A stretch of DNA of 64,000 nt from positions 6,448,001-6,512,000 of the forward strand of contig NZ_JAFBCM010000001.1 of NCBI RefSeq assembly GCF_016907715.1, in the 5' to 3' direction. The translations under genes were made by a program, and so were the position numbers. Source of the stretch: Tenggerimyces flavus. GTDB lineage: Bacteria > Actinomycetota > Actinomycetes > Propionibacteriales > Actinopolymorphaceae. A model generated the notes under the pieces. It did no database searches, had not been told where the DNA came from, and saw only the letters and a list, made by a program, of their open reading frames with translations. This document shows, one piece after another, positions 19,031-35,200 of the stretch (position 1 is the stretch's first letter; each line of letters begins with the position of its first letter).

Positions 19031-19043
19031 GCGGCAGAGTCTT

Positions 19044-19658
19044 TCACCTCAGGTGAGAACGCACCCAGCGCGCCACGCTCGCCGCCGCCTCCTCCGGCGT
19101 GCCCTCGTCGGTGCTGACGACCGTGTCGAGGCGTTTGCGGAGCTCGGCGGCGAACTCGAGGTGCTGCTCGATGTTGCGTTCGCGCCAGGCCGGTCTCGCT
19201 TCCAGCCTCGCTCGGCGGACGTCGTCGTTGCAGTCGAGGGCCGCGAAGTGGGTGTCGCCGACCCACTCCCGGAGGGGCAGCTCGTCGAGCTGCTCGGGAA
19301 CGAACGGGCAGAGCAGAACGGTCGACCGTCCGCCCTGCGCGAGGCCGTGCGCGACGGCCAGCCAGGCGTCGCGGAAGCCGGCCCAGTCCATCGGGTCGGG
19401 CAGACACATCCGGCCGAGCGGGTCGATCAGCCAGTCGACGTCGAAGACCGCGCACTCGGGGAGGGCGTCGATGAGCGGTTGGGTGATCGCGGTCTTGCCC
19501 GAGGCGGACGCTCCGGCCACGACGAAGAGCGGGAGCCGCTTGGCGGGGACGTCGTTCCCACACTGCGTACACCGCGCGACCTGCCGCCCGTCCTCGGTGA
19601 CGGCGGGCTTCATCGGGATCGGGTCGTCGCAGTTCTGGCAGTAGTGCATCTGGCTCAT
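19044..19658 (-). CDS. Zinc-ribbon P-loop ATPase/kinase-like protein
   Basis: A 204-residue protein with an unusual order of parts: an N-terminal zinc ribbon (C7xxC10 and C30xxC33), then a P-loop GASASGKT (49-56) and a nucleoside/shikimate-kinase-like alpha-beta fold. VFDVDWLIDP could supply the substrate or Mg2+ aspartates and RARLEARPAWRERNI a lid-like arginine-rich helix. The start MSQMHYC at 19658 is chosen because the ribbon begins there; the longer open frame upstream has no such feature. It is probably a small-molecule kinase or a nucleotide-dependent regulator. Being 13 bp upstream of rpiB may hint at pentose or nucleoside metabolism, but no substrate can be named. Confidence 0.75.
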   Translation of the reverse strand: MSQMHYCQNCDDPIPMKPAVTEDGRQVARCTQCGNDVPAKRLPLFVVAGASASGKTAITQPLIDALPECAVFDVDWLIDPLGRMCLPDPMDWAGFRDAWLAVAHGLAQGGRSTVLLCPFVPEQLDELPLREWVGDTHFAALDCNDDVRRARLEARPAWRERNIEQHLEFAAELRKRLDTVVSTDEGTPEEAAASVARWVRSHLR

Positions 19659-19793
19659 TGTCGCGCTCCGCGCGACGAACCGGGTGCTTGAACGCGGTCC
19701 CTTCCACCGCGGCCCAAAGTTTCGGTCGCCTGCCCGGTGCCGGGCGGCAGGCCGCGGAGGAAAGGACCGCGGCACCCGGCTGCGATCCTGCCT

Positions 19794-20465
19794 CTACCCG
19801 TTGAGGTACGCGAGGACGGCGAGCACGCGGCGGTGCCCGTCCTCGACCTCGGACAGGTCGAGCTTGGCGAAGATGTTGCCGATGTGCTTGGCCACCGCGG
19901 CCTCGCTGACGACCAGCGAACGGGCGATCGCGGCGTTCGCGTGGCCCTCGGCCATGAGCGCGAGCACCTCCCGTTCGCGCGCCGTGAGCCGCGTCAACGG
20001 GCCGGTGTCGCGGCGCTGGACGAGCAGCTGGCGTACGACGTCGGGGTCGATCACGGTCTGCCCGTCGGCGACCCGTTCGATCGCGCCGACGAACTCGGTG
20101 ATCTCGCTGACCCTGTCCTTCAGCAGGTAGCCGAGCCCCGCGGTGCCCGGGGACTCGAGCAGGTCGGCGGCGTACGCGGACGCGACGTACTGGGAGAGCA
20201 CGAGGACCGCGAGCGTCGGGTACTTCTCCCGCAGCCGAACCGCCGCGCGGAGGCCCTCGTCGGTATGGGTCGGGGGCATCCGGATGTCGGTGATCACGAT
20301 GTCCGGCCGGTGCTCGTCGACCGCGGCGACCAATCCCACCGCGTCGCCGACCGCCGCGGGCACGCGGTGGCCGAGGCGTTCGAGCAGGCTGACCACGCCT
20401 TCGCGGAGCAGGACGGCGTCCTCGGCGATCACGATCGTGAGGGAACGGGTCCCATCGTCGGGCAC
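19794..20465 (-). CDS. NarL/LuxR-family response regulator
   Basis: A 223-residue two-component regulator. The receiver begins LTIVIAEDAVLLREG, with the phospho-acceptor D60 in VITDIRMPP and the conserved lysine in YLLKDRV. The C-terminal HTH reads LTAREREVLALMAEG...VSEAAVAKHIGNIFAKL. The GTG at 20465 is taken as start because the receiver begins ten codons later; the open frame upstream is the kinase in another frame. It overlaps the kinase gene by 37 bp, so the two are translated together. Its targets are unknown. About 135 bp separate it from the next leftward gene. Confidence 0.93.
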   Translation of the reverse strand: MPDDGTRSLTIVIAEDAVLLREGVVSLLERLGHRVPAAVGDAVGLVAAVDEHRPDIVITDIRMPPTHTDEGLRAAVRLREKYPTLAVLVLSQYVASAYAADLLESPGTAGLGYLLKDRVSEITEFVGAIERVADGQTVIDPDVVRQLLVQRRDTGPLTRLTAREREVLALMAEGHANAAIARSLVVSEAAVAKHIGNIFAKLDLSEVEDGHRRVLAVLAYLNG

Positions 20466-21808
20466 GGAATCTCCAGGGTCAGCACGGTGGGTCCGCCGGG
20501 CGGGCTGGACAGGATGAGTCTGCCGGCTACGACCGCGAGCCGGTCCGCGAGGCCCTGCAGCCCGCTGCCGTTCGCGGGGTCGGCGCCGCCCACGCCGTTG
20601 TCGGTGATGCCGACCACGAGCTGGCGGCCGTCGTGCCGGGCGTGGACGAACGCGACCGACGCCTGCGAGTGGCGGGCGACGTTCGTGAGCGCTTCGGTGA
20701 CGACGAAGTACGCGGCGCTCTCCACCGCGGGTGGGAGCCGCTGGTCGAGCCTGAGGTCGAGCTGGACCGGCACCGCCGACCGCCCGGCGACCTCCGCGAC
20801 GGCGGCGGCCAGACCGCGGTCGGTGAGGACCTGCGGGTGGATGCCGCGGATCAGGTCGCGGAGCTCCTGCAGGGCGACCTTCGCCTCCCGGTGGGCGTCC
20901 TTGACGAGCGCGCGGGCCTCTTGGTTGTCGGGGTTCTCGCGGCCGAGCTCGAGCTCCGCGACGCCGAGCCGGAACGCGAGCGAGACGAGGTGGGCCTGCG
21001 TACCGTCGTGCAGATCTCGTTCGATCCGCCTTCTTTCCGCCTCGAACGCGTCGACGAGGCGGGCCCGCGAGGTGACGGCCTCGACGTACTGCGGCGCGTC
21101 GACCGAGCCGACCAGCATCACCCGCGCGATCTTCGCCCGGGCACCGACGACCACGCAGGCGAGGTAGGCGGCGAACGCGTACGCGATCGGCAGGATGCCG
21201 AGGAACAGCGCGCTCTCGCCCCAGCTGTCGATCTGCCAGTCGAAGAACGCGACCGAGTCGTCGCCGAGCGTCGGCATGATGATCGCGGCGAGCGGGAAGC
21301 CGATGAGGTTGAGGCAGAGGAAGACGCCGAGCAGGTCGCCGATCAAGACGGCCGAGACGACGACGAACGCGTACGCGAGCTCGCGCCAGGTGGCGCCCTC
21401 TTTGAGGCGCTCCTTCAGCCAGAGCCTCATTGGTTTTGCTGGGAGCTGCTTGTGCGGGCTGGGGGCGGGCTCGCGGTCGACGAGGCCCAGGCGTCGGCGT
21501 TCGAACGCGGCCACCGGGATCGCGAAGAGCGGGATCGCGACGAGGACCGCGGCGCCGATGACCGTGATCGAGGCGAGCAGGCCGAACCCGACCATGCCGA
21601 TCAGGACGAGCAGTAGCACCAGGCCGAAGACGCTGCTGGTGACGAGGTAGCCGAACGCGCGCCACGGCCAGGACGAGGTGAGGAACCTCAGCGGTGGCAG
21701 GCGGATCGCGTCCCAGGCGGTGACCGGCTCTTTCTTGGCCTTCTGTGCCGTCTGGTCCGTCTGGTTCGCCGCTTGGGGTGGGACGGCCGGGGCGTACTGC
21801 GGGGTCAC
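20429..21808 (-). CDS. Membrane histidine kinase (HisKA_3/DesK-like)
   Basis: A 459-residue sensor kinase. The first ~210 residues contain about four membrane segments in two pairs, matching the Sensor domain found in many actinobacterial NarL-type kinases, with little extracellular sequence. The dimerisation helix carries ERRRIERDLHDGTQ with the phospho-histidine at about H267; the ATPase domain has an N-box region (ALTNVARHSQA) and the G-box VGGADPANGSGLQGLADR. The small loops suggest it senses the membrane or an integral partner. Partner regulator is the overlapping downstream gene; an SRPBCC protein gene lies 42 bp upstream. Confidence 0.92.
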   Translation of the reverse strand: MTPQYAPAVPPQAANQTDQTAQKAKKEPVTAWDAIRLPPLRFLTSSWPWRAFGYLVTSSVFGLVLLLVLIGMVGFGLLASITVIGAAVLVAIPLFAIPVAAFERRRLGLVDREPAPSPHKQLPAKPMRLWLKERLKEGATWRELAYAFVVVSAVLIGDLLGVFLCLNLIGFPLAAIIMPTLGDDSVAFFDWQIDSWGESALFLGILPIAYAFAAYLACVVVGARAKIARVMLVGSVDAPQYVEAVTSRARLVDAFEAERRRIERDLHDGTQAHLVSLAFRLGVAELELGRENPDNQEARALVKDAHREAKVALQELRDLIRGIHPQVLTDRGLAAAVAEVAGRSAVPVQLDLRLDQRLPPAVESAAYFVVTEALTNVARHSQASVAFVHARHDGRQLVVGITDNGVGGADPANGSGLQGLADRLAVVAGRLILSSPPGGPTVLTLEIPCPTMGPVPSRS

Positions 21809-21850
21809 CTGCCCGACGTTACGGCTTCGCGGCCGTCCCGGTCGGTAGCG

Positions 21851-22288
21851 CTAGGTGGAGTCGCGGGTTCCAGCCCGCTCCAGTACCTCGCGGAGGTTCT
21901 GGAGCTGGCCCGAGTCGGTGCGTTTGATGGCCGTGCGGATGACGGGGCCGAGGAGGACGGTCGGGAACCCGCTGATCTGCAGGTCGGCGGTGAGGGTGGC
22001 TCGGGTGCGTTCGCCTTCTTGGCTGAGCTTGTAGACGTACTGGGCCGTCACGCCGCCTTGCTTGTTCACGATGGTGACGGAGCGGCCGGGCTCGATGGCG
22101 GTGATCTCGGCTTGGATCGTCTTGCCGCGGGCCTCGTACGTGACGGTGGTGCCGTCGACGCGCATGGTGTCGACGCCGTTCATCCAGCGGGGGGCGCGGT
22201 CCCAGGCGGTGAGCTCGGTCCAGACCTCGGCGACGGGACGGTCGATCACGGTGTCGACCTGGAACAGTCTTCGCATGCCGGCGAGCAT
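21851..22288 (-). CDS. SRPBCC (START-like) family protein
   Basis: A 145-residue helix-grip fold protein. FQVDTVIDRPVAEVWTELTAW is the usual first strand and helix of polyketide-cyclase/Bet v1-like proteins, and VTAQYVYKLSQEGERTRATLT the central sheet. The family makes hydrophobic ligand pockets; no catalytic residue can be assigned. The start could instead be the ATG at 22276 (MRRLFQV). It lies between an AraC regulator (33 bp upstream) and the kinase gene (42 bp downstream), suggesting one leftward transcript. Confidence 0.82.
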   Translation of the reverse strand: MLAGMRRLFQVDTVIDRPVAEVWTELTAWDRAPRWMNGVDTMRVDGTTVTYEARGKTIQAEITAIEPGRSVTIVNKQGGVTAQYVYKLSQEGERTRATLTADLQISGFPTVLLGPVIRTAIKRTDSGQLQNLREVLERAGTRDST

Positions 22289-22321
22289 CTTGGTTTGTTG
22301 CTCGTGGCGCTTGGACGGAAT

Positions 22322-23152
22322 TCACATCACGGGGACGAAGCCGGGCTCCTGCTGGCCGACGTCGTACGCGGCGCGCTGGGCTTGCCTGTAGGCGGACGGC
22401 GTGACGCCGGTGTGGCGGCGGAAGTCGCGGATGAAGTGGCTCTGGTCGAACCAGCCCCACTCGGCCGCGATGCCTGTCCACGTGGTGCCTTCGTTGAGGT
22501 CGAGGGCTTGGAGGACTCTTCTCAGGCGGAGGATGCGGGCGAGGACGCGTGGGGTGAGGCCGACGACGCGGACGAACTCGCGGTCGAGGTGGGCGTGGGT
22601 GATGCCTAGCTCTGTGGCGAGCTCATGGATCGGGCGTCGCGGGTCCTGCTCGAGGTTGGCGATGGCTTTCGCGGCGCGTTGCCAGTTTGGTGGTGGTCGC
22701 AGGCCCTCGCTGAGGGTGGCCTCGACGGCGTCGAGGCAGTCGTGCGGCGACTTGTCGTGGAGGGCGTCGCGGAGCGCTGTGGCGGCGGGCCAGGCGTGCT
22801 CGAGGTCTTCGACGCGTCCGCGTAGTGGTGACGGGTCGACGCCGAACAGGGCCCGGCAACCGACTGGTGTGGAGACGATGCCGACCGCGTGCGTCTCTGC
22901 CGTCGGGGCGTTGAGCACGGGACCGTCGTGCGGTCCGGCGAGCCAGCCCCGTTCGGCGAGGAACGGCTCGCCTTCGCCGTTGCGTGGGGTCTCGAGGATG
23001 GGGGAACCGAGGACGAAGACGGCGACGGTGGATCCCGTCGGCGCGATCCGCTCGCTGTTGTGCATGAGCTGGCCGCGGGCGTACCAGATCGACTCGACGA
23101 ACGGCTCCAACGGCTCGGGCGGCCGGCGCGTCACGTACTCGAACTCCGCCAC
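22322..23152 (-). CDS. AraC-family transcriptional regulator
   Basis: A 276-residue regulator. The N-terminal half (FVESIWYARGQL, PTGSTVAVFVLGSP) resembles the DUF6597-type sensor domain common in actinobacterial AraC proteins. The C-terminal half holds two HTH motifs: ELATELGITHAHLDREFV and GIAAEWGWFDQSHFIRDF followed by GVTPSAYR. I start at the GTG at 23152 (VAEFEYVTRR). An array of small palindromes begins only 43 bp upstream of this start and could be its promoter control region. Ligand and targets unknown; the downstream SRPBCC and two-component genes are candidates. Confidence 0.87.
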   Translation of the reverse strand: MAEFEYVTRRPPEPLEPFVESIWYARGQLMHNSERIAPTGSTVAVFVLGSPILETPRNGEGEPFLAERGWLAGPHDGPVLNAPTAETHAVGIVSTPVGCRALFGVDPSPLRGRVEDLEHAWPAATALRDALHDKSPHDCLDAVEATLSEGLRPPPNWQRAAKAIANLEQDPRRPIHELATELGITHAHLDREFVRVVGLTPRVLARILRLRRVLQALDLNEGTTWTGIAAEWGWFDQSHFIRDFRRHTGVTPSAYRQAQRAAYDVGQQEPGFVPVM

Positions 23153-23194
23153 CCCTCGGACGCTACCGCCGAACCGCCTTCGCGATACGCCCAA

Positions 23195-23530
23195 CGATAC
23201 GGACGTCACAAGTCCACCTTTGCTACTACAGGCGTAAAACATCCCAGCGCCCGCGCGGTTGCTGATACGGACGTAAAACGTCCGCTCTTGGTGTTACCGG
23301 CGTAACAGATCCCGGTGTGGTGATACGGACATAAGACGTCCACCTTCCGCGATGCGAGCACAGACCTCCCGCGCCCGCCCTTGGTGATACGGCCGTAAGA
23401 CATCCCGCCCACCGATACGGACGTAACAAGTCCACCTTTGCTACTACAGGCGTAAGACAACCCAGCACCCGCCCGCTTGCTGATACGGACGTAAAACGTC
23501 CGTTCATGGTGTTACCGGCGTAACAGATCC
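23195..23530 (-). repeat. Tandem array of eleven ~21-bp palindromic units
   Basis: Units follow TGATACGGACGTAAAACGTCC with variants such as TGTTACCGGCGTAACAGATCC and CTACTACAGGCGTAAAACATCC. Starts are at 23195, 23223, 23263, 23292, 23321, 23349 (degenerate), 23385, 23413, 23441, 23481 and 23510, so the period is 28-29 bp with three longer steps of 36-40 bp. Units 1-4 with their spacers recur as units 8-11 as a ~120-bp direct repeat offset by 218 bp. The array lies between the ROK stop (23545) and the AraC start (23152). Confidence 0.85.
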
Positions 23531-23544
23531 CGGCATGGTCCGGA

Positions 23545-24663
23545 TCAGGCAGGCCCGAAGGTCTCGGCGTGCAGGAGGTCGAGCGCGACCAGGACCGCTC
23601 CGCGCAGGACGGGGGCGCCGCTGACGGTGCCGGCGACGACTTCGGTCGGCAGCGGGACCCGTTCGGCCACCCCAGTCGCGACGCGCGAGGCCAACGCCGT
23701 GCCCCCGGCGCGGCCGACGGTGCCGGCGAGGACGACGGTGCCCGGGTCGAGGATCGAGCAGATCCCCGCCACACCCACCGCCACCCGGTCGGCGAGCTCG
23801 TCGAGGAAAGCCTCCGACCCGGCGATAACGACACCCTCCAGCCCGCCAGACGAATCCACCCCATGCGCACGGGCAAGGGCCAGCACAGACGCCCCACCCA
23901 CGAGCTCCTGGAACGTCCCCGTACCCACCGGCAGATAGGCCGTCTCCCCCGCACCACCAGAAGCGCCCCGATAAAGCTGCCCGCCCAACACGACGGCCAT
24001 CCCGATCCCCGACCCCAACGACAACAGCGCGAACGAGGACCGCCCCATCATCGCGCCCAGCCGGTGCTCGGCGAGCCCGACCAGGTTCACCTCGTTCTCC
24101 AACAGCACCGGCACATCGAGCCGAGAACGCAACCCAGGCAGCAGATTCGCGTGCCACGTCGGCAAGAACGCCGCGAAGCTCAAATCGCCCGTTGAAGGAT
24201 CGACCAGCCCCGGCGTCCCCACGACCACCGTCCGCAGCGCAGACACCGACGCCGAGGCAGAAGCCGCAACCACAGCAGCGTGCACCACCTCAACCGGCGA
24301 AGAAGAAGCGTCGAAAGGCACCTGCGCCGACCCGACTGTCCGCCCCGTCACGTCGGAAACGACAGCCAGCACAACGCGAGGCCGCACCTCCACCCCGGCG
24401 ACGAAGGCCCGATCCGCCACCACCCCGTACAGCGCCGCGTTCGGCCCGCGCCGGTCCGTCCCCGACTCCCCCACGACAGCGACCAGCCCGGCGGCCTCCA
24501 TCCGATCGACCAGGTCCCCGACCGTCGGCCGCGACAGCCCAGTCAAGGAACGCAGCTGCGGCCGAGTCAGAGGCCCACGGGAGAGCAACAGGTCGAACGC
24601 CTTCCGGTCGTTCAGCTGGCGCACCAGCGCGGGCGACGCCGGGCCTTCGCGCTCGGAACCCAC
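23545..24663 (-). CDS. ROK-family transcriptional regulator
   Basis: A 372-residue NagC/XylR-type repressor: N-terminal winged helix (PLTRPQLRSLTGLSRPTVGD, ~33-52) and a C-terminal sugar-kinase-like domain. The zinc-binding CxCGxxGCxE signature normally found in ROK proteins is absent; the region after GETAYLPVG contains no cysteines. It is divergent from an MFS transporter plus GH20 hexosaminidase operon, so it probably represses that operon and responds to N-acetylglucosamine or a chitobiose-like sugar. A ROK-like operator half-site GTTAGTTTC lies in the 71-bp gap. Confidence 0.88.
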   Translation of the reverse strand: MGSEREGPASPALVRQLNDRKAFDLLLSRGPLTRPQLRSLTGLSRPTVGDLVDRMEAAGLVAVVGESGTDRRGPNAALYGVVADRAFVAGVEVRPRVVLAVVSDVTGRTVGSAQVPFDASSSPVEVVHAAVVAASASASVSALRTVVVGTPGLVDPSTGDLSFAAFLPTWHANLLPGLRSRLDVPVLLENEVNLVGLAEHRLGAMMGRSSFALLSLGSGIGMAVVLGGQLYRGASGGAGETAYLPVGTGTFQELVGGASVLALARAHGVDSSGGLEGVVIAGSEAFLDELADRVAVGVAGICSILDPGTVVLAGTVGRAGGTALASRVATGVAERVPLPTEVVAGTVSGAPVLRGAVLVALDLLHAETFGPA

Positions 24664-24693
24664 CGGAACCTCTTTTCATCAGGAACCCTGCCT

Positions 24694-24711
24694 GTTAGTT
24701 TCGGAACATAC
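24694..24711. promoter_or_regulatory. Candidate ROK operator
   Basis: GTTAGTTTC-GGAACATAC is an imperfect inverted repeat (6 of 9 positions) in the gap between the ROK gene and the MFS gene. GTTAGTTT matches the half-site known for XylR/NagC-type ROK repressors. Its position would let one dimer control both directions. Confidence 0.4.
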
Positions 24712-24734
24712 ACCGACTCGGGAGGGCAACGCAC

Positions 24735-25961
24735 GTGCTTGCACAGTGGCGGACGCCGGTGCGACGCCGGTTCCCCCTAGCCGTCTACTTCTTCCTCGTC
24801 GGGTTCGTCCCGGCGAACTGGCTGGTCCGCATCCCCGACGTCAAGGAGCAGGTCGGCGCGTCCGCCGCGTCACTCGGCCTCGCGCTGCTCGCCGGGTCGG
24901 TCGGCGGCCTGCTGATGACGCCGCTCGGCGGCCGGCTCGCGATGCGGATCGGTACGCGGCCGCCGATCGCGTTCGGCGCGGTCCTGCTCTCGCTCGCGAT
25001 CGTGCTGCCGGCCCTCGCCACGAACGTCCGCTGGCTCGGCGCCGCGCTCATCGTGCTGACCGTGATCCACTCGATGTTCAACGTCTCGCTGAACTCCGCC
25101 GCGGTCGAGGTCGAGGCCGCGTACGGGCGCTCGATCATGCCGACGCTGCACGGCACGTACAGCGTCGGCGGGCTCGTCGGCGCGGTCGTCGGCGGGTTCG
25201 CGGCGGGACGCGTCAGCCCGACCGTCCACCTCGCCGTGATCGGTGCGCTGAGCCTGGTCGTGGTCGCCCTCTTCGCACCGAGGATGCTGCGGGCGGACGC
25301 CGGCGGCACCACTCCCGCAGCGCACACCGACCCGAAGCAGGCGACGCCAGCGAGGACCAAGCACCTCGGCATCATCGTGCTGTTCGGCGTGATCGGACTC
25401 TGCACCGCCTGGGGCGAGTTCGCCGCGAACAACTGGGCCAACCTGCACCTGCGCGAGAACCTCGGTGCCTCCGCCTCGGTCGCAGCGTACGTCTTCGCCG
25501 CGTACTCCTGCGCGATCGCCGCCGGCCGTCTCCTCGGCAGCCCGGTGATCCGGAGGATCGGCGCGACGGCCGTGCTCACTGGCGGCTTCCTGGTCGCCGC
25601 CGTCGGCATGGTCAACGCCGCCTGGGCCAGCCACATCGACGGCGGCGGCCTACCGCTCGCGATCGCCGGGTACGTGCTGCTGGGCCTCGGCCTCGCGAAC
25701 GTCTACCCGATCGCCATCGCCAGAGCCGGAGCGATCGGCGGCCCGCGCGGCGTCAGCCGCGTCGTGCTCCTCGCCGGCGCGGGCATCCTCGGCCAGGGCC
25801 CGATCATCGGCTTCCTCGCCGACCAGTTCGGGCTCCCCTGGGCGCTCACCACCGTCCCGATCCTGGCCGTGATCGCCGCCGGCATCGGGCTCTCGCTACG
25901 TCGCTACAACAACTACGCGGCCGTCCTGCCGGCCGTCGAAACCGAACGGAGCCAGGCGTGA
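24735..25961 (+). CDS. MFS sugar transporter
   Basis: A 408-residue major-facilitator protein with about 12 membrane segments, starting at GTG with GGGAGGG upstream. GGRLAMRIGTRPPIAFG is the loop-2 motif. LHGTYSVGGLVGAVVGG and GILGQGPIIGFLADQ are typical of helices 5 and 11 in the FucP/NarK-like branch. Its TGA overlaps the GTG of the GH20 gene, so the two are translationally coupled. Probable role: uptake of N-acetylhexosamine, or a breakdown product of its glycoside, under ROK control. The specificity is inferred from the neighbours only. Confidence 0.85.
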   Translation: MLAQWRTPVRRRFPLAVYFFLVGFVPANWLVRIPDVKEQVGASAASLGLALLAGSVGGLLMTPLGGRLAMRIGTRPPIAFGAVLLSLAIVLPALATNVRWLGAALIVLTVIHSMFNVSLNSAAVEVEAAYGRSIMPTLHGTYSVGGLVGAVVGGFAAGRVSPTVHLAVIGALSLVVVALFAPRMLRADAGGTTPAAHTDPKQATPARTKHLGIIVLFGVIGLCTAWGEFAANNWANLHLRENLGASASVAAYVFAAYSCAIAAGRLLGSPVIRRIGATAVLTGGFLVAAVGMVNAAWASHIDGGGLPLAIAGYVLLGLGLANVYPIAIARAGAIGGPRGVSRVVLLAGAGILGQGPIIGFLADQFGLPWALTTVPILAVIAAGIGLSLRRYNNYAAVLPAVETERSQA

Positions 25962-32247: not shown

Positions 32248-35200
32248 GTGAGGAGTGTCATGCGCGCCCCGCGCACCCGCTGTACCGATGTGCTTCGTCG
32301 TGCGCCGATCCTCGCGCTCGCGACCGCGGCGCTGGTCGTCTCCGTACACCAGCCCGCCCAGGCCGACGGAGCCAGCACCAACCGGCCAGGGACGCTGCTG
32401 AATTCCAGCGGCGTCCCGGCCGCAGACTCCCTCAGCACCGACCACCGCGAGGGCCGGATCGGCCCGACCGACGCCCAGCGCGCGCGGGTCACCGAGCTGG
32501 GCGCGACGGCCCGGTGGACCAAGTTCGGTACGGTCGCGACCCTCTCGCCAACGACGCCTGACAAGCCCCTCGCGCAGGGCCGCGAAGGGGACCCGGCAGC
32601 CGTCGCCCGCGGCTTCGTCGACGCCAACCGCGTCCTGTTCCGGCAGAACGCGCAGAGCGTCGACCAGCTCGAGGTCGTCACCAACGCCCCGCTCCCCGGC
32701 ACCACGACCCCGGCCAGCGTCGTGGTGCTGAGAGAACGTTTCGGCGGCATCCCCGCCGGCGCGGGCGGTCTGATCACGATCGCCGTCGCCGGCAACCGGG
32801 TCGAGTACGCCAGCTCCTCCGCGTACGGCGCCGCGTCCACCCCCGCGAAGCCCACGCTGACCGCGATCACCGCCTGGCGCGCGGCCGCGAGGAGCCTCGG
32901 CCGGCAGCTCCCCGGCAACGCCGTGCGTCCGCTGCAGACGCCGACGGACCCGAGGCAGTGGGCCACGTTCACCGTCGCCGGTCTCGCGCAGGTCCAGCAG
33001 GTCCGGCTCACCGCGGTCGGCGTGCCCGGGCAGGGCGTGCGGCCGGCGTACGAGACGAACGTCGTCGACGTCCAGAACGGCACCGCGCTCGCCGCGACCT
33101 CGTTCGTGGACGCGGTCACCGGCGCCATCCTGGTCCGCGCCAACCGGGTCGACGCCCTGACCGGCAAGGTGCAGAAGGCACCGCCCAGCGGCTTCGACGC
33201 CCTGACCGGCAAGGTGCAGAAGGCACCGCCCAGCGGCTGCGACGCCACGCTGACCGGCTGCGGCGTGCGGCTGAGCTCCGGACCCGTCAACGCGATCTCG
33301 AGCATGCTCGCCGGCGGTCCGCAGGGCGACAACGGCCTGGGCGGTCTCGGCGGCAGCCAGGGCGAGAACGCGATCACGACCGAGGCCTGGAGCAGCCCAC
33401 TGAGCGCGGCCGGCGCGAGCTCGCCGCCCTACGGGAGCCCCGCGCCGAGCCGGGAGTTCGCTGACGTCTGGCGTACCTCCGGCTGCGACGTCGCCAACCT
33501 CACGCCGGGTGGCAACGACATCGACGCCGCGGTCAAAGAGGTCTTCACCCGCCACAACGCGCTGCACGACTGGACGTACGACCTGGGCTTCACCGAGCGC
33601 ACCGCCAACCTGCAGCGCGCGAGCGCGACGTCCGGCGACCCGGAGGTCGGGTACGTGCAGTCCGGCGCGCTGACCGGCGGCTACCCGACGTACCTCGGCC
33701 GGAACAACGCCAACCAGGCCACGCTGCAGGACGGCATCCCCGGCATTACGAACCTCTATCTGTTCCAGCCGGTCGCCGCGCAGTGGTACGGCCCGTGCGT
33801 GGACGGCGCGTTCGACCCGACCGTCGTCGCGCACGAGTACGCGCACGCCGTGACCGAACGGCTGGCCGCCGGCCCCGACCTCGGGCTGTCCGCGCCGAAC
33901 GCGCAGGGGCTCGGCGAGTCCTGGTCGGACCTGATCGCCGCCGAGTATCTGCTCGCGCACGGCGAGACCGGCCGCGGCGAGGCCCGCGCGACCGCGATCG
34001 GCGGGTACGTCGCGGGCAACCCCAAGCGCGGGATCCGCAACTACCCCGTCGGGTCCAGCCCGCTGAACTTCGGCAACCTCGGCTACGACCTCGCCGGCCC
34101 CGACGCGGCCGCCGACGGCGAGATCTGGTCCGCCGCGAACTGGGACGTCCGCGCCGCCCTGATCGCCAAGTACGACAAGGCGTTCCCCGTCGCCAACGCC
34201 GAACTGCAGCAGGCGTGCGCCGCCGGCGAGCGCCCCACCGCCCAGTGCCCGGGCAACCGGCGCTGGCTGCAGCTGGTTTTCGACTCGTTGCTGCTCCTGC
34301 AGCCCGACTCCGGCATGCCGACGGCGCGGGACGCGCTGCTCGCCGCCGACCGGCTGCGCTTCGGCGGCGCCAACCAGGCCGAGATCTGGCAGGCGTTCGC
34401 GCACCGCGGGCTGGGTATCGCGGCCACGCTGACGCCGCTCGGCGCCGCGCGTCCGGACTTCACCACGCCGTTCGGCGCCGAGGGCACGCTGCTCGTCAAG
34501 GCGGTCGAGGCCTCCTCGGGCCGTCCGCTGGCCGCCGCGATCCGCATCGGCCGCTACCAGGCCGGTACGTCGCCGGTGACGACCACCGACGCGCGGGCGG
34601 GCGTTCCACGCCATCTGCACTTCGTGCCGGGGACGTACGACCTCACCTGGTCGGCGCAGGGATACGGCATGGGCCGCGCGCGGGTCACGATCGTCGCCGG
34701 CCGGACGTCGTGGCTGACGCTGCACCTGTCCCGCAACGTCGCCTCCGCGACGAACGGCGCTCGCGCCGCCGCCGAGGAGCCGAGCGCGGCTGGGCTGATC
34801 GACGACTCCGAGGCGTCGGCCTGGTCGGTGACCGGCCGGACGCCGGACGCGATCGGTGCGGCAGCGACCATCGACCTGGCCGGGTCCGCGCCGCAGGCCG
34901 TGCGGTCGGTACGGGTGAGCGCGCTCCCCCGTTCGATCGCCGGAACGCCCAGCGCTGACGGCGGCATGCGCTTCGCCAGCCTGCGCAGCTTCGCGCTCGA
35001 GGCGTGCAGCGTGGCGTGCGGTACCGACGCCGGTTGGCGGCGCTTCTACACCTCGCCGGCCGACGCGTTCCCGGCCGGGCGGCCGCGACCAGTGACGCCG
35101 GACCTGGTGTTCCGCGAGTTCGACGTCCCGGACGTGTCGGCGACCCAGCTGCGTCTGGTCGTGCTCTCGACCCAGTGCACCGGGGCGCCGGCGTACGTCT

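Follow-up and report, generated by a model that had tools for sequence, protein, structure and literature searches.

A putative homotypic operator cluster in Tenggerimyces flavus and a TetR-family repressor as its candidate binder

Introduction

Palindromes in the promoter of a tetR gene itself are the usual layout of autorepression. Clusters of protein-binding sites are also found in bacterial chromosomes; for example, datA of E. coli is a chromosomal cluster of DnaA boxes that titrates a protein. Short palindromic units of the REP and BIME kind are likewise clustered, lie soon after stop codons, and occur in many copies over the genome, while CRISPR arrays are defined by near-identical repeats with unrelated spacers. 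Operator clusters have also been engineered. In E. coli, both an autorepressed gene and its target were expressed more strongly when decoy sites were present, as the accessible part of that report describes (PMC7505660), and natural decoys are already in print as an idea in a 2016 paper that the same report cites. In the accessible portions of the literature on decoy, titration, and clustered operators, we found no natural bacterial TetR operator array; many matches were off topic, making this weak evidence of absence.

Here, we describe a tandem array of palindromic units (array 1) between a ROK-family gene and an araC-type gene of Tenggerimyces flavus. It was found in a 64-kb stretch of DNA, which we call the window. 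Together with a second array in the same genome, it may serve as a natural sink for a repressor or represent a repeat of repressor sites that has spread.

Results

Array 1 is a real feature, made of ten clear units and one decayed unit. The units are 18 bp each and all face the same way, and the clear ones start (T of TAC) at 23198, 23227, 23266, 23295, 23324, 23388, 23416, 23445, 23484, and 23513. They score 29.0–35.5 bits with a unit matrix that was trained on these same ten units, and the best match elsewhere in the window scores 12.5 bits. The features of the region are listed by window position, strand, description, and basis.

19031–23544, no strand: 4.5-kb segment between ROK and rpiB (comparison with relatives)
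21851–22288, minus: SRPBCC/Polyketide_cyc2 protein behind araC (ORF, Pfam)
22322–23152, minus: AraC-type regulator (HTH_18, DUF6597) directly downstream of array 1, likely GTG start (ORF, Pfam)
23188–23321, plus: 134-nt duplication, first copy (self-comparison)
23194–23534, plus: array 1, ten clear units and one decayed (sequence, unit matrix)
23198–23215, plus: W1A, A unit, GGA-n9-TCC intact (unit matrix, operator matrix, steps)
23227–23244, plus: W1B, B unit (unit matrix)
23266–23283, plus: W2A, A unit, GGA-n9-TCC intact (unit matrix, operator matrix, steps)
23295–23312, plus: W2B, B unit (unit matrix)
23324–23341, plus: W3A, A unit, GGA-n9-TCC intact (unit matrix, operator matrix, steps)
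23353–23370, plus: decayed unit in a B position (29 bp after W3A; row W3 of the A+B alignment)
23388–23405, plus: W4A, A unit, left GGA changed to GGC, fails the operator matrix (unit and operator matrices)
23406–23539, plus: 134-nt duplication, second copy, 92% (self-comparison)
23416–23433, plus: W5A, A unit, GGA-n9-TCC intact (unit matrix, operator matrix, steps)
23445–23462, plus: W5B, B unit (unit matrix)
23484–23501, plus: W6A, A unit, GGA-n9-TCC intact (unit matrix, operator matrix, steps)
23513–23530, plus: W6B, B unit (unit matrix)
23545–24663, minus: ROK-family regulator (ORF, Pfam)

The units are of two alternating types, with B starting 29 bp after A. A units read TACGGACGTAARRCGTCC with small changes and B units approximately TACnGGyGTAAnAnATCCC; the two differ in the left half-site, B units having lost the left GGA and mostly retained the right TCC. 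The original prediction counted eleven units with self-complementary cores. Ten of these are clear, but the eleventh is only a decayed remnant at ~23353, and self-complementarity is right for some units, but two types with different left half-sites had been merged into one. In order, the steps between clear units are 29, 39, 29, 29, 64, 28, 29, 39, and 29 bp. The 64-bp step is made up of 29 + 35 and passes through the decayed unit, which is absent from the unit-matrix matches at ≥8 bits; a 56-nt A+B model spans it (23320–23374) at 42 bits, that stretch being among the model's own training rows. The 29- and 39-bp steps differ by about one helical turn, a comparison with few spacings behind it. 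As predicted, units 1–4 are duplicated as units 8–11, in an internal duplication of 134 nt with 92% identity and copies 218 bp apart. Changes between the copies affect 3 of 72 unit positions vs. 8 of 62 linker positions, a difference that points to selection and is not significant (Fisher p 0.11). Tandem Repeats Finder at score 50 did not return array 1. Elsewhere in the window, a 30-bp tandem unit, TTGGATGAAGGTGCCCTTCATCCAAACCTA, itself largely palindromic, occurs in about two copies at 343–399, and a 45-bp repeat (98% matches, 2.2 copies), its unit a multiple of three, lies at 33149–33246 within long open frames of both strands.

The original prediction set the array 43 bp upstream of the AraC start and 15 bp past the ROK stop; by our measurement, the first TAC is 45 bp from the likely AraC GTG start (23152), and 14 bp separate the last TCC (23530) from the ROK stop codon (23545–23547). 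This AraC start is a provisional choice because three other in-frame starts (23194, 23209, and 23242) lie at or within the edge of the array. The AraC query for the Pfam, family, and NCBIfam searches began one codon before the GTG. Judged by their spacing, araC and the SRPBCC gene probably form one operon. Within the 4.5-kb segment, array 1 lies at the ROK edge and is followed by araC, the SRPBCC gene, and an apparent two-component pair; a kinase-like gene was also seen in 19031–23544. A sigma-70 scan of 22900–23700 gave no promoter, including near the AraC start, and this counts against reading the array as an operator.

The original prediction proposed looking for further units in the genome, and these were found in a second array at a gene end and in an inverted pair in a tetR promoter. 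With a 358-bp array 1 query, one other region of the 8.5-Mb genome was matched, twice (C1:8432746–8432939; E 1.8e-8 and 9.4e-6); since this array 2 was found by DNA similarity 2 Mb away, array 1 is more than a chance arrangement. Array 2 (L016 2183–2430, minus strand) has three A and two B units at steps of 29, 102, 29, and 62. It begins 22 bp past the conserved stop codon of disA, in the convergent gap between disA and a Gfo/Idh gene, where no promoter is expected. Past array 2 in this gap, L016 2563–2594 is a perfect palindrome with 14-bp arms (GGCAAATGATCATG-TTTA-CATGATCATTTGCC). The A-spacer-B module, the 29-bp A–B step, and part of the next linker (CGCGCGGTTG) recur in both arrays. As the A–B module and spacer are common to both, the arrays are probably of common origin. 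The A–B gaps are 11 bp long and partly conserved between the arrays, and this, together with diverged units of two types, led us to reject a CRISPR.

Searching with the A pattern at up to three mismatches gave 21 places genome-wide. All nine places with two mismatches or fewer fall at three loci, namely array 1, array 2, and a tetR-SDR operon whose promoter holds the units as an inverted pair. The 12 places at three mismatches comprise three in array 1 and nine scattered ones (L019–L026 and L029), which were taken as chance, given four places for the reversed-pattern control. The A+B model, trained on seven modules from both arrays, had at least 13 matches at E up to 10, with 11 at the three loci; 150 of 840 genome candidates were scored, and weak units may escape. 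One match to a looser pattern, at C1:5301121, reached 12.3 bits with the unit matrix. Single units scattered at random, which the original prediction named as evidence against itself, are not what the genome holds: copies sit at three loci.

This distribution also bears on whether the array serves partition, as an iteron, or for a nucleoid protein, the second option of the original prediction. Direct repeats of ~20 bp, mostly at 28–39-bp steps, would suit such a role. However, there are only three loci, one of them an inverted pair in a regulator promoter; Pfam found no par or rep family in the ten genes beside them, and a distant blastn search of plasmids and phages found no match to the array. 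We therefore disfavor this option and regard it as the least probable of those considered. Eight viral contigs carry TACGGACGTAAATCGTCC once each, with no array in the stretches examined.

The inverted A pair, T1 and T2, lies at C1:181967–181984 and 182006–182023, with GGA-n9-TCC cores at L015 1968–1982 and 2010–2024. The ATG of tetR, which encodes 213 aa and is followed by a short-chain dehydrogenase gene, lies 22 bp past the end of T2. T1 is 54 bp before the probable ATG (L015 1913) of a divergent ArsR-type (HTH_20) gene, behind which lies an AHSA1/SRPBCC gene. The TetR has TetR_N (54.8 bits; cut-off 24) and, above its curated cut-off, the C-terminal domain TetR_C_43 (42.1 bits; cut-off 27), which makes it a member of the SbtR-like family PF21597. 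In NCBIfam, it is below every curated cut-off shown, and a structure search placed TetR-family chains with unspecific names on top. Judged by their letters, this pair and the A unit represent one and the same 18-bp site; the tetR gene at 182 kb has the arrayed site in its own promoter.

The tetR promoter is also relevant to the idea that the units act as RNA, as tandem hairpins behind the rok and disA stops that serve as terminators or mRNA-end structures. We consider this very improbable. In both arrays, the units do follow closely on a stop codon and are oriented alike with respect to the preceding gene, and several A units can form GGACG/CGTCC hairpins. However, the fold z-score is only −1.4, no pairs and no consensus structure were predicted across 17 units, Rfam gave no match at E up to 1 (21700–24900), a terminator scan of 22900–23700 found no site, and the same unit occurs in a promoter.

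To find out whether the site goes with this TetR, we relied on its homologues. TetR relatives at E 1e-25 or better were present in at least 14 of the 391 genomes of the order, own genome included; at most seven candidates per genome were scored, and homologues may escape. The 160 bp before the matched stretch were taken for 17 relatives, 13 from the order (35–43% identical) and 4 from Amycolatopsis, and homologues without GGA-n7–9-TCC remained in the counts. GGA-n8-TCC occurred 13 times and GGA-n9-TCC 5 times vs. 1.3 and 1.4 expected from shuffles, all within the regions of the order homologues, 10 of 13 of which carry such a site. Regions with an n7–9 site numbered 10 of 17, where 500 shuffles gave a mean of 3.6 and a maximum of 9. 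Spacings of 7, 10, 11, and 12 did not occur in these regions. Some results count against the association. Spacings of 4, 5, 6, and 14 were somewhat raised (4, 4, 3, and 3 vs. 1.1–1.4 in shuffles), and no GGA-n7–9-TCC was found upstream in 3 of the 13 order homologues or in any of the 4 distant Amycolatopsis relatives, whose loci carry a different palindrome. As a control, 22 upstream regions of ROK, AraC, and disA homologues had n8 once and n9 three times; spacing 5 occurred seven times there, which again counts against it.

The foreign sites approximate AASYGGA-n8/9-TCCRSTT, and A units are mostly ATACGGA or TTACGGA-n9-TCC; from this resemblance, the A unit is a member of the same putative operator class, in its n9 form. 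An operator matrix was built from 18 foreign sites, with no sequence from this genome. L050, L052, and L056 had no site for it, and the four Amycolatopsis loci lay outside its 13 inputs. The background of 90,409 positions consisted of the window outside array 1 and nine loci around the scattered three-mismatch places. T1, T2, W2A, W6A, and D1A outranked every background position, W1A, W3A, W5A, and D0A were beaten by two, and D2A by three. The matrix therefore fits both tetR-promoter sites and eight of nine arrayed A units (rank 0–3). W4A fails at rank 583, as do all six B units scored (ranks 1384–23851), and because of these failures, the operator claim is limited to A units. When only the flanks were scored, none of the 33 chance GGA-n9-TCC sites scored as high as T1 or T2, and 0–3 of them scored above each of the eight arrayed sites. 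GGA and TCC are kept in eight of the nine arrayed A units (intact in 5/6 in array 1 and 3/3 in array 2), and the n9 middle varies.

The inverted pair lies in a divergent gap shared with the ArsR-type gene, whose probable start is close to T1, and this protein, or another regulator, could bind the units with TetR uninvolved. We regard this as improbable. At the 10 order loci with sites, the divergent partner, defined as the longest divergent ORF, was MFS at six, a zinc-binding dehydrogenase at two, and a MarR-type protein and a sub-threshold cupin at one each, and GGA-n8/9-TCC tracks TetR homologues across these different neighbors. The MarR-type partner passes the Pfam arsR model weakly (24.1; cut-off 22), which counts against this argument. 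Because divergent partners differ among homologue loci, we assign the site to the TetR, and the palindrome most likely goes with it rather than with the ArsR-type neighbor gene.

Our genus-level genome set was this genome alone. Among 393 other genomes of the class, the A+B model had no match at E 0.001 (strict filters; 14 candidates scored per genome), and the tight A pattern was absent from the seven other family genomes; the looser A pattern occurred in 2 of 391 genomes of the order, own genome being one. The original prediction had named absence from close relatives, with no effect on neighbors, as evidence against it; in line with the first half of this, none of the relatives searched yielded an array. 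In all seven family relatives, a Gfo/Idh gene 72–74% identical to the one here faces disA, across a gap of 71–133 bp in six and 375 in one, compared with 526 here with array 2. The 375-bp gap, in relative G003, holds a ~108-bp tandem repeat (L081 1222–1493); since it is unrelated to array 2, the disA gap seems to gain repeats independently. An rpiB relative (69–75% identical) is found in the flank after the ROK match in all seven relatives; at the five loci measured, 35–79 bp separate it from the ROK stop, vs. 4.5 kb here. Because AraC relatives in the family are only 27–34% identical, AraC is probably not an ancestral neighbor. Each array lies just past the stop codon of a conserved gene, and the gap around it is wider here than in the relatives.

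This history gives weight to a selfish origin, the third option of the original prediction. A neutral or selfish repeat may have captured the TetR operator, moved by copying from one locus to another, and expanded through slippage and unequal exchange, leaving sites that bind TetR without use. We lean against this, while taking it to be a real possibility. The shared module, step, and linker, starts at 14 and 22 bp past conserved stop codons in widened gaps, growth of array 1 through the 134-nt duplication, and the unrelated repeat in the same disA gap of another family genome would all be expected of it. For the shared spacer, the internal duplication, and the post-stop positions, neutral spread is as good an explanation as function; for the A–B spacer, descent alone accounts for its presence in both arrays, which counts against a functional reading. 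However, only two arrays and no dispersed single copies were found in 8.5 Mb, GGA and TCC are retained despite the variable n9 middle, and one array abuts a gene start.

Discussion

Our preferred reading, to which we give a probability of about 50%, is that array 1 is a homotypic operator cluster for the TetR-family repressor (TetR_N plus PF21597) at 182 kb on the same chromosome. A multi-site operator is the best of the three options in the original prediction, and the TetR with the same site in its own promoter is the candidate binder; the A units are most likely its operators. In such a cluster, TetR dimers would bind the intact A units of both arrays, and at array 1, they would repress the AraC-SRPBCC operon that starts ~45 bp past it. 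The eight arrayed sites, above all those of promoterless array 2, would draw repressor away from the two sites in the tetR promoter, so that more of it is needed to shut the tetR-SDR operon. With a scarce repressor, eight additional sites against the two in the promoter could make a difference. B units may be weak sites or spacers. That B is conserved between the arrays yet is no operator by the matrix is the weak point of the operator reading. Because the genes flanking array 2 are convergent, it is no ordinary promoter operator for its neighbors, and there, titration has to be weighed, as does the idle, neutral spread of a repeat that carries operators.

A bolder proposal, which we rate as unlikely, is that both arrays form a natural chromosomal sponge of eight strong TetR operator copies, three of them in the promoterless convergent gap. 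Duplication of the A–B module would have set the free repressor level, the tetR-SDR switch would have become steeper or leakier, and AraC-SRPBCC would have joined the regulon.

Judging from DNA sequence, array 1 is real and appears to be a homotypic operator cluster of an unusual kind, with a good candidate for its binder; it may serve regulation, act as a sponge, or be a neutral repeat. With one promoter-side array, one promoterless array, and a candidate repressor, the system asks whether bacteria evolve decoy arrays or whether operator repeats spread neutrally. It also illustrates that the promoters of homologues in other genomes can suffice to assign a likely binder to a cryptic intergenic repeat.

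Like REP and BIME elements, the units are palindromic and clustered after stop codons, but there are two arrays and a regulator-promoter site, at three loci in all, with no dispersed copies found, in place of many copies over the genome. Like datA, array 1 is a chromosomal cluster of protein sites; the protein and the sequence are different, and no link to replication was seen here. The synthetic E. coli decoy arrays, as the accessible parts of those reports describe them (PMC7505660 and PMC7826281), resemble this case in having several operators away from the regulated promoter; those were engineered on plasmids, whereas the arrays here are natural and chromosomal and their titration is putative. 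The SbtR operator, TGACYRNNYRGTCA in the accessible part of PMC4948773, differs from the A unit, whose site class is CGGA-n9-TCC, and this sets the regulator apart from SbtR itself. The likeness to autoregulated SbtR-like (PF21597) TetR repressors as a group lies in the TetR_N and TetR_C_43 domains, the two palindromic sites in the gene's own promoter, and the dehydrogenase neighbor. Unlike in those systems, the sites here have been multiplied into arrays at two remote loci.
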